61,808 nt of DNA from Comamonadaceae bacterium CG_4_9_14_3_um_filter_60_33 (lineage in GTDB: Bacteria; Pseudomonadota; Gammaproteobacteria; Burkholderiales; Burkholderiaceae_C). The DNA is taken from contig PFUD01000133.1 of assembly GCA_002789915.1 (NCBI GenBank), positions 1-61,808 of the forward strand, written 5' to 3'. Positions 50,473 to 52,962 of the stretch are shown piece by piece. The notes beneath the pieces are model-generated. The model ran no database searches and had not been told where the DNA came from. It worked only from the letters and a program-made list of their open reading frames with translations. Position numbers and translations under genes: made by a program. Position 1 is the first letter of the stretch, and the number at the start of each line of letters is the position of its first letter.

Positions 50473-51594
50473 ATGAACATCGCCCTTAAAGAAGTCGATT
50501 ACGAACAGCCGCAAGCCGACGCGAGTGGCTCGGTTTGTGCCACCAAACACGCCTGGGCACGGGTGCCGGAAGAGCCTGGCCCGGCTGAACGTGCAGCCCT
50601 GAAAGACAAAATCCGCCGCCTGCTGAAGGAAAAAAATGCAGTCATGGTGTCGCATTACTATGTGCACCCCGACCTGCAAGACCTGGCTGAAGCCACCGGC
50701 GGCCTGGTCAGCGACTCGCTGGAGATGGCGCGTTTTGGCCGCGACCACGCGGCGCAAACGCTGGTGGTCTCTGGCGTGCGCTTCATGGGCGAAACAGCCA
50801 AAATCCTGTCGCCCGAAAAACGTGTGCTGATGCCCGACCTCGACGCCACCTGCTCGCTCGACCTGGGCTGCCCGGCGGATGAATTCGGCGCTTTCTGCGA
50901 CGCCCACCCCGATCGCACCGTGGTGGTCTATGCCAACACCAGCGCGGCCGTCAAGGCGCGCTCGGACTGGCTGGTCACGTCCAGCTGCGCGCTCGACATT
51001 GTGAAAGCGCTCAAGGACAAGGGTCACAAAATCTTGTGGGCGCCCGACCGCCATCTGGGCGGCTACATTCAGCGCGAAACCGGTGCCGACATGCTGATGT
51101 GGAACGGCGCGTGCATCGTCCACAATGAGTTCAAGGCCGTTGAACTGAAATATCTGATGCAGCAGCACCCGGCGGCCAAGGTGCTGGTGCACCCCGAATC
51201 CCCTTCTGAGGTGGTTGCGCTGGCTGATGCCGTGGGTTCCACCTCGGCCATTCTCAAGGCCGCTCATGAGATGGACGCCGACATGTTCATTGTGGCCACT
51301 GACAACGGCATGATGCACAAGCTGCGCGCGCTCAACCCCGGCAAACTCTTTTTGGAAGCGCCCACGGCGGGCAACAGCGCCACCTGCAAGAGCTGTGCCC
51401 ATTGCCCCTGGATGGCGATGAACAGCCTGGCCGACGTGGCCCGCGTGCTGGAGACCGGCGCTAACGAGATATTTGTTGACCCCGCCATCATTCCCAGGGC
51501 GCGCTTGCCAATTGATCGCATGCTGGCGTTTACCTCGGCGCTCAAGGGCGGGCTTGATGCGGGTAGCCTGGTGCCAAATATTGGGGCTGCCTGA
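50473..51594 (+). CDS. nadA: Quinolinate synthase
   Basis: NadA condenses iminoaspartate with dihydroxyacetone phosphate using a [4Fe-4S] cluster. The 373-residue protein has [19 protein letters not shown], and cysteines in [22 protein letters not shown] and [13 protein letters not shown], which include the three cluster ligands. HPESPSEV is also conserved. A good AGGAG site precedes the ATG. About 30 bases after the stop comes the first of two long hairpins sharing an apical sequence. Confidence 0.96.
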
Positions 51595-51625
51595 GGGCTG
51601 GTTTCGGCGTGATTTTTCTTTAGCG

Positions 51626-51705
51626 GCAGTGGGTGGGGCATTGGGGACCGCCTCAGACGCGCTTCGCTTTGCGACATCGGCGCTCCTCAATGCCCCACTC
51701 ACTGC
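51626..51705 (+). repeat. Long hairpin 1 with conserved apex, 3' flank of nadA
   Basis: Arms 51626-51647 and 51684-51705 pair over 22 positions, 20 Watson-Crick and two that become G-U in RNA read from the plus strand. The 36-base loop holds a 32-base core (51650-51681) identical, in inverted orientation, to the core of hairpin 2. Inside the core GCGA and TCGC (AAA between) can pair. It starts 31 bases after the nadA stop, and no T run follows. The rest of the 355-base gap (51595-51949) holds only hairpin 2 and a plain spacer; I see no gene in it. Confidence 0.85.
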
Positions 51706-51810
51706 TGTGAGGCTCTGCTTTGCCAGCGCTGAATACCTGTAGGCCAACACTTGAGGCCGACGCGGTTGTCCCGTATTCGGTTTCTATGCTCGCCAAACCC
51801 AACGGCATCA

Positions 51811-51888
51811 GGCCAATCGGGGTAAGGCAGGGGGCCGATGTCGCAAAGCGAAGCGCGTCTGAGGCCCCCTGCCTTACCCCGATTGGCC
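51811..51888 (-). repeat. Long hairpin 2 with conserved apex, 3' flank of the EamA gene
   Basis: Arms 51811-51836 and 51863-51888 are a perfect 26-base inverted repeat; the loop is 51837-51862. The 32 bases 51834-51865 are the exact reverse complement of 51650-51681 in hairpin 1, while the outer stems are unrelated. Read on the minus strand, as in the EamA transcript, the loop has the same sense as hairpin 1 has in the nadA transcript. It lies 61 bases after the EamA stop and lacks a T run. Confidence 0.88.
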
Positions 51889-51949
51889 CATCACCGCCGC
51901 CAGTAAATCACGAATGAACCCTGTTTTCAAACGCAACAGGGCAGTTGCA

Positions 51950-52855
51950 TCAGCGCCGTGACGACGACACCGCAATGCCGCCGACGATCAACACAAACGC
52001 CAGCGCGTGGTACAGGTGCGGCAACTCGCCCAAAAAGGCCACAGACAGCACCGCAGTGAAAAGCGGCACCAGGTTGACGAAAAAACCGGCCACTGCCGGG
52101 CCGGCGCGCGCCACACCGGCGCCATAAGCCCGGTAAGCCAGCACGGCCGGGGCCGTGGCAATGAACAGCAGCGCCAGGGCAAGCGCCCAGCTCATCTCCA
52201 ATCGGCCAAGACCCAGCGACCACTCCACACCGGCGGACAGGCTCGACCAGACCAGGCCGAAGGCAATTTGCGCCAGCAAGAAGGCCGACCAGTTGCGCCT
52301 GATCTCGGTCGGCTCGGTGGTCGGGTGCGCCAGCATCCAGCTGTAATAGGCCCAGGCGGCTGCAGCTAACAACATGTAGATGTCGCCAGGTACCAGACGC
52401 ACCTGCAGCAGCACGTCAAGCTGACCCCGGCTCAAAACCAGCATCACGCCGCAAATCGACAACAGCGCGCCCAGCCACTGCCTGCCCGAAATGCGCATGC
52501 CAAAAAACAGCCGTCCAATCAACAGCATCCACACCGGCGTGCTCGACCCCACCAGCGTCACATTGAGCGGGGTGGATGTGTTGAGCGACAGATACAGCAG
52601 CGCGTTGTAGCCGCCAATGCTCAGCAGCCCGAGCAGCGCAAAACGCCGCCAGCTCGGCCACAGGGCACTGCCCCGGCGCAGCACCGGCGCGGCCAGCGGC
52701 AGCAGCAGGGCAAAGGCAATGGCCCAGCGCAGCAGGTTGAGCGTCATCGGTGAGACCAGCGGTGCCACCAGCCGCCCCACTACGGCGTTGCCAGCCCAGA
52801 AGATAGGCGGCAGGGTCAGCAACACAATGGTGCTGGGGCTGAGTTTTGCGTGCAT
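51950..52855 (-). CDS. EamA/DMT family transporter
   Basis: A 301-residue inner-membrane protein with about ten transmembrane helices in two EamA repeats: the first begins TIVLLTLPPIFWAGNAVVGR, the second GDIYMLLAAAAWAYYSWML. Members of the drug/metabolite transporter superfamily export amino acids, nucleosides or other metabolites; the substrate here is unknown. The ATG at 52855 fits the start of the first helix; an upstream in-frame extension is polar and rejected. It converges on nadA across the twin-hairpin region. Confidence 0.9.
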   Translation of the reverse strand: MHAKLSPSTIVLLTLPPIFWAGNAVVGRLVAPLVSPMTLNLLRWAIAFALLLPLAAPVLRRGSALWPSWRRFALLGLLSIGGYNALLYLSLNTSTPLNVTLVGSSTPVWMLLIGRLFFGMRISGRQWLGALLSICGVMLVLSRGQLDVLLQVRLVPGDIYMLLAAAAWAYYSWMLAHPTTEPTEIRRNWSAFLLAQIAFGLVWSSLSAGVEWSLGLGRLEMSWALALALLFIATAPAVLAYRAYGAGVARAGPAVAGFFVNLVPLFTAVLSVAFLGELPHLYHALAFVLIVGGIAVSSSRR

Positions 52856-52962
52856 AGAACGTGACTGTAGCAAGGCTTTTACCCTGGCCTGATGCCCGCG
52901 CGACAGCCCGCGCTGCCAAATCATGGCAACATCGTGCGAATCAACTTTTCAGGAATTAAAAC

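Follow-up and report, generated by a model that had tools for sequence, protein, structure and literature searches.

Paired hairpins with variable arms and a nearly constant internal loop in Rhodoferax and related genera

Our data show that two hairpins lying between nadA and an EamA-family transporter gene in the window (the whole stretch of DNA analysed, 61,808 nt of a Comamonadaceae contig) belong to a dispersed family of palindromes. The arms of these palindromes vary while their pairing is kept, the internal loop near the apex is nearly fixed and marks the family, and arm mismatches survive as wobbles on a single strand, which we call the F strand. With somewhat better than even confidence, we read the element as a REP-like, non-autonomous mobile palindrome whose F strand would act as a single-stranded hairpin read by a putative trans-acting protein.

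Two hairpins at the nadA-eamA site

Both hairpins sit inside the 355-nt gap between the convergent nadA and EamA transporter genes (Table 1). As the preliminary description of the locus stated, the 32-mers at 51650-51681 (+) and 51834-51865 (-) are identical on opposite strands, and stem 2 consists of 26 perfect pairs; its 26-nt arms are 100% complementary, and the 27-nt arms of stem 1 are 89% complementary. Fold z-scores of the window hairpins run from -6.4 to -10.8 over both strands, and the 28-base core, allowing three mismatches, had 0 chance matches in 100 shuffles of the window. That description also called the stems unrelated: the A and B arms are indeed unlike each other, but each falls in a recurring arm family. 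Its remark that neither stem is followed by a U-tract agrees with our own inspection of the window sequence by eye, in which none was seen, and we rejected an intrinsic terminator on this ground. An Rfam search of window positions 51500-52000 returned 31 matches, all below the gathering cut-off and mostly to microRNA models.

Table 1. Features of the nadA-eamA gap and its neighbours in the window.
Feature	Position	Strand	Basis
nadA, left neighbour	50473..51594	+	PF02445
Hairpin A, arms 51626-51652 and 51679-51705	51626..51705	+ is the CTCA strand; family F strand is -	arm family A
Apex A, type 1 (C-TCA-G-A-CGC-loop-GCG-A-C-ATC-G)	51652..51679	+	apex comparison
Spacer separating hairpins A and B	51706..51810	none	start partly conserved in other units (26-unit alignment)
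Hairpin B, arms 51811-51836 and 51863-51888	51811..51888	- is the CTCA strand; F strand is +	arm family B
Apex B, identical to apex A, inverted	51836..51863	-	apex comparison
B-side conserved flank, end GAATGAACCCTG..TTCA	51889..51929	+	common to many units (26-unit alignment)
EamA-family transporter gene, right neighbour	51950..52924	-	PF00892

nadA is present in 58 of 89 genomes, and we fetched 20 downstream regions, mostly from the closest. One of them (genome G424) carries the unit, ten have nadA beside eamA without it, and nine have no EamA match in the stretch. Sites without the unit have gaps, taken up to a point some 20 nt within the eamA match, of about 36-84 nt in nine relatives; a tenth, which holds other palindromes or repeats, has 235 nt, and the two carriers have 278 and 379 nt. 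We prefer insertion because 10 of the 11 relatives with nadA beside eamA lack the unit: it was probably inserted here, and loss in ten lineages would be a less simple history. No target-site duplication, the feature that the preliminary description took as favouring a mobile element, could be read, and we weighed this against a mobile origin. By eye, the nadA-eamA gap of G403 (L171) contains GTAGGG-type palindromes and a hairpin-less stretch like the B flank.

Variable arms, a constant loop and a favoured strand

The preliminary description carried an impression that the core recurs in Comamonadaceae, and the element is in fact dispersed in Rhodoferax and related genera. The 32-base apex, with up to three mismatches, has four matches in the window's genome; the 29-base core, at the same tolerance, was found in 20 of 89 genomes of the window's genus and in 8 of 399 drawn from its family. 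A degenerate core with up to two mismatches matched 2 of 399 order-wide genomes, both of the same family, and 0 of 387 from other families. Scanning genome contigs for exact matches yielded 17 stretches: 16 carry Rhodoferax in their titles and the remaining one is from a Burkholderiales MAG. The covariance model R1 detected the element, at E <= 1e-6, in at least 44 of 299 family genomes and at least 27 of 141 genera; across the order its matches fall in at least 3 of 200 genomes, all within the window's family; R1 also matched at least 14 of 16 genomes and at least 12 places in the window's own genome, and all these counts are lower bounds with at most 150, 24 or 16 candidates scored per genome. 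A second apex type, first met downstream of nadA in G401 and G417, is present in 11 of 20 genomes looked at. The window unit has no match in phages or plasmids and the type-1 core no exact match in viral contigs, and an origin in any of these sequence sets was rejected.

To follow the arms we collected 132 hairpins, listed the 102 with at least 19 pairs and placed 50 of these in a model alignment, which is almost gapless. Paired cells make up 91.6% of that alignment, compared with 35.0-43.6% when partners are slid, a value inflated by choosing well-paired hairpins, although the slid controls were drawn from the same chosen hairpins. Covariation scored 0.727, and no slid control exceeded 0.120. 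Both sides changed in 394 cells versus 118 in shuffles, and 0 of 500 shuffles reached 394, which bears out the compensatory changes in the flanking arms that had been proposed. Two other measures are close to their shuffled values: 24 of 27 pairs have a two-sided change somewhere (shuffle mean 21.9, reached by 27 of 500 shuffles), and there are 59 further pair types (versus 59.2, reached by 299 of 500).

The nearly fixed part of the hairpin lies at the apex. Our main set comprises 144 distinct hairpins from a finder that needs at least 17 of 23 Watson-Crick pairs, imposes TCA and [AG]TC, and drops decayed copies. With those letters imposed, the apex ends are CTCA/ATCG in 136 hairpins, TTCA/ATCA in 4, CTCA/GTCG in 3 and CTCA/ATCA in 1; in the TTCA/ATCA apices (4 of 144) the closing C-G is replaced by T-A. 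A further 33 hairpins came from 35 R1 matches under no TCA rule (the + matches in L273 and L285 repeat two of these places on the opposite strand), and their rows, read by eye, gave 32 CTCA/ATCG and one CTCA/TTCG (L280, - strand); R1 itself favours the CTCA/ATCG letters, so these hairpins are independent in place, not in method. One step inward, 78 of the 144 have T-A and 62 have G-C, and the position after that is A.A in 129. Inside this constant loop sits a variable small hairpin, with at least nine tip types, some of which R1 matches added. The apex that had been described as invariant is the same in both window hairpins, but its 26-base loop is one of many tips; the constancy lies in the internal loop below it.

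Read on the complement, this constant loop is 5'-GAU/5'-UGA and can form tandem G.A and U.U, followed by one pair and after it mostly U.U. In the type 1 apex of the window, the energy model prefers another pairing of the loop with UGA bulged; the whole hairpin set suggests the tandem-GA arrangement. A kink-turn motif includes a 3-nt bulge besides tandem G.A. Our loop is compatible with the tandem G.A and U.U but lacks that bulge, and a kink-turn was rejected.

The F strand is the one that reads CGAT...TGAG, the complement of the CTCA strand, and A.C on the CTCA strand is a G.U/G.T wobble on the F strand. Over 22 arm pairs in 144 hairpins, CTCA-strand cells comprise 2784 Watson-Crick pairs, 252 A.C, 25 G.T and 107 others; about 8% of the 3168 cells (252) are therefore F-strand G.U, and under 1% (25) F-strand A.C. 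Since hairpins at orthologous sites are not independent, we clustered arms at 65% identity here and took one unit per locus for the apex classes below; with clustered arms counted once per column and kind, 63 versus 17 favour the F strand (p = 2e-7). The 33 hairpins at 20 further family-search loci hold 55 F-strand wobbles versus 2. RNA folding energy is lower on the F strand in 138 of 144 hairpins, with the window's A copy among the six exceptions. Pairing on this strand is also kept by copies that share a site in different species: of 120 variable pair columns at orthologous sites, 50 show F-strand G.U, 11 CTCA-strand G.U, 36 two Watson-Crick states and 45 other mismatches, some of which seem due to damaged or shifted copies (L083, L097, L103). 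As a yardstick we took 28 E. coli REPs with seven outer pairs each, which gave 4 G.T versus 1 A.C; these counts are too few, and the yardstick was dropped.

The bias runs in one direction in every setting, with A.C:G.T counts of 88:8 and 67:11 in the two tandem classes, 57:5 in convergent gaps, 14:1 in divergent gaps, and 7:0 and 5:0 inside ORFs. This is compatible with a mark that is carried by the DNA and independent of transcription. Because the family wobbles sit on the opposite strand, the maintained fold of stem 1 would be antisense to nadA.

Composite units and copies within genes

The A-spacer-B unit of the window recurs in Rhodoferax. From the fetched Rhodoferax loci we picked and aligned 26 inward-facing pairs, and 25 of them combine an A-type hairpin with a B-type hairpin; the remaining unit (L093) has a damaged A copy. 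Assigning each of 88 type-1 hairpins to the nearest consensus, a forced choice with weak scores for some (L094, L123, L160), gave A arms to 41 and B arms to 42 and left 5 mixed. When all apex types are taken together, the CTCA strands of 43 distinct pairs face inward in 38, outward in 4 and in the same direction in 1, and both apices bear the same class label in 38 (L098, one mixed pair among the 43, is a label artefact). The 5:24 class agrees in 24 of the 26 Rhodoferax units, whereas within-genome shuffles average 15.7 and reach 24 in 2 of 10000; with one unit per orthologous locus it agrees in 13 of 14, and the 29-mers of the two apices are identical in 14 of 26. Since this class agreement exceeds that of within-genome shuffles, we conclude that the apices of one unit tend to change together.

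Single hairpins number 59: 51 have no partner, 6 have a possible weaker partner and 2 lie near a contig end. Two of the five mixed hairpins (L106:2971-3055 and L126:2990-3074) are hybrids in which an A arm faces a B-like arm, and they look like products of a deletion running from one apex to the far arm. L128 and L129 (genus g88) show a CTCA-outward pair between genes called divergent, with arms unlike A or B. At L259:2045-3397 (G264), facing hairpins about 1.2 kb apart, placed between genes that by eye resemble murB and argG, enclose lipoprotein-like and HTH-like ORFs. Pairs about 1-1.3 kb apart were rejected as autonomous elements: those in L079, L266 and L267 are two copies within one ORF with an MmeI-type domain, and the wide L259 pair flanks other ORFs.

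According to a home-made codon-score gene caller, 88 of the 144 copies lie in tandem gaps, 31 in convergent gaps, 14 in divergent gaps, 5 inside called ORFs and 6 beside a contig end; the divergent gaps account for 14 of 133 copies with both neighbours, as a raw count from this simple caller. Several copies lie within long open frames. In NCBIfam searches L278 (four hairpins) and L281 exceed both UvrA cut-offs and L285 one of the two, and Pfam places MmeI-type methylase domains in L079, L266 and, just over the cut-off, L267; blastn relates L125 to L079. L079, L266, L267, L269 and L271 had no NCBIfam family, and L268 and L271 had none in Pfam. The four L278 hairpins (G137) share one 1567-codon frame that fills the fetched stretch and carries the UvrA match. 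The methylase ORF of L079 contains a further palindrome (L079:3772-3827) of unlike sequence, which has an inverted blastn match in L125.

Known elements and possible modes of action

According to PMC3733652, REP palindromes are dispersed and frequently occur as facing pairs, chiefly in tandem or convergent gaps, with some copies in uvrA and other genes; their stems are 5-13 bp (GTAG) or 8-9 bp (CGTC) and bear terminal tags. Our element resembles REP/BIME in its common facing pairs (38 of 43) and in some intragenic copies, including those in UvrA frames. It differs in its long stems (24-32 positions in 103 of 144, both wobble kinds counted), in its widely varying arms with the constant part in an internal loop near the tip, and in having no Y1 gene beside its copies in the loci read. 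GTAG tags are in no excess at the hairpin foot (GTAG 3 and CTAC 2 in 288 flanks versus 1 and 3 in the control); CGTC occurs 23 times and GACG 16 times in the 288 foot flanks versus 12 and 12.

Rickettsia palindromic elements (RPE) comprise several palindrome families that join ORFs in frame, as PMC10969869 describes them. Ours likewise lies in frame in UvrA (L278, L281, L285) and MmeI-type genes (L079, L266, L267); compared by description, RPE belong to another lineage. The BRE repeats of Rhodoferax, Polaromonas, Delftia, Acidovorax and Bordetella, also found in coding sequence, are described in PMC3110155 as 75-91 bp long and often tandem direct. Our element differs from that arrangement, with 38 of 43 pairs facing, 4 outward and 1 direct. 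By these descriptions, the closest kinds are REP/BIME and RPE. The open-licence literature, in the portions available, describes no element with such widely varying arms around a constant loop, and six strings tried are absent from it. The attC site of integrons is a strand-specific folded recognition site with a variable tip, and by analogy our element, also a strand-specific fold with a variable tip, may be comparable.

Composite pairs, sites that lack the unit in relatives and copies inside genes all fit the dispersed, palindromic, mobile-element-like behaviour that the preliminary description had allowed for. In the mechanism we favour, the element would be inserted as DNA, as two long hairpins facing across a short spacer, and its F strand would fold as a single-stranded hairpin. 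The internal loop (tandem G.A and U.U, then mostly a U.U mismatch and a variable tip) would be the recognition mark for a putative protein, which most likely would act on single-stranded DNA to move or process the element, in the way Y1 transposases handle REPs; the arms would merely hold the mark in shape. In our judgement single-stranded DNA is favoured over RNA, because the bias ignores the direction of transcription. No transposase was found beside a copy in the loci read. All 23 genomes examined for Y1 (PF01797) have it, whether or not they carry the element and often in frames of ~230-260 aa, and a link by presence was rejected as uninformative; among 40 Y1 matches in these genomes, the 30 loci read hold no apex or like hairpin, and a Y1-flanked autonomous copy was rejected as well.

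A broader reading, which we rate a little below even, is a superfamily of mobile palindromes whose sole fixed information would be a strand-specific internal-loop motif read by a putative protein; the arms would be free, and the folded strand would be selected in place, in gaps and in genes such as uvrA. Under this reading, the same apex class kept in both hairpins of a unit would point to conversion or exchange between them.

The upkeep of F-strand pairing in resident copies at the same site suggests RNA or continued activity, a use in place beyond transposition. It is doubtful, though far from negligible, that the F strand acts as RNA, with the unit emitting or reading into an F-strand hairpin that would bind a protein through the tandem-GA loop as an outward insulator, a processing site or a small RNA. 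G.U wobbles with few A.C, the pattern of the F strand, are what one expects of a structured RNA, and both the pairing kept at orthologous sites (50 of 120 columns versus 11) and the outward-facing F hairpins of 38 of 43 pairs speak for this role. However, the bias has the same direction whether F is sense or antisense to its neighbours, and inside ORFs; the 51 partnerless singles lack a common promoter-holding spacer, and no Rfam family rises over the cut-off at the window locus. The preliminary description instead proposed a 3' UTR RNA hairpin in sense to the upstream gene (an RNase III site, a stabiliser or a stop to readthrough). The stems are very stable, and on the CTCA strand the nearest called gene boundary is upstream in 109 of 133 copies, 71 of these being 3' ends. 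Sense placement of the apex proved not to be general, holding for only 81 of the 138 intergenic copies for which an upstream gene was called; copies also occupy divergent gaps and coding sequence, and in every class with such mismatches the CTCA strand shows A.C rather than G.U, with the wobbles on the opposite strand, which makes this proposal improbable. The least probable explanation, and a very unlikely one, is that no fold is selected and that DNA polymerase template switching corrects the palindromes, with compensatory changes as a by-product. When standard pairs on the CTCA strand depart from the commonest pair, both sides differ in 394 cells and a single side in 6 (F-strand wobbles counted as unpaired), as this predicts; but under this explanation neither strand should be favoured with respect to the apex, whereas the bias is tenfold, and the constant internal loop under at least nine tips goes unexplained.

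These results mean that a search that starts from the sequence of one copy misses most other copies in the family, whose arms are unlike and whose tips are many (one core reached 20 of 89 genomes), and that a covariance model is now available that detects copies in at least 27 of 141 family genera. Genome data by themselves suffice to identify the relevant strand, the tandem G.A and U.U loop offers a testable recognition motif, and natural in-frame copies are available in DNA repair and restriction genes.
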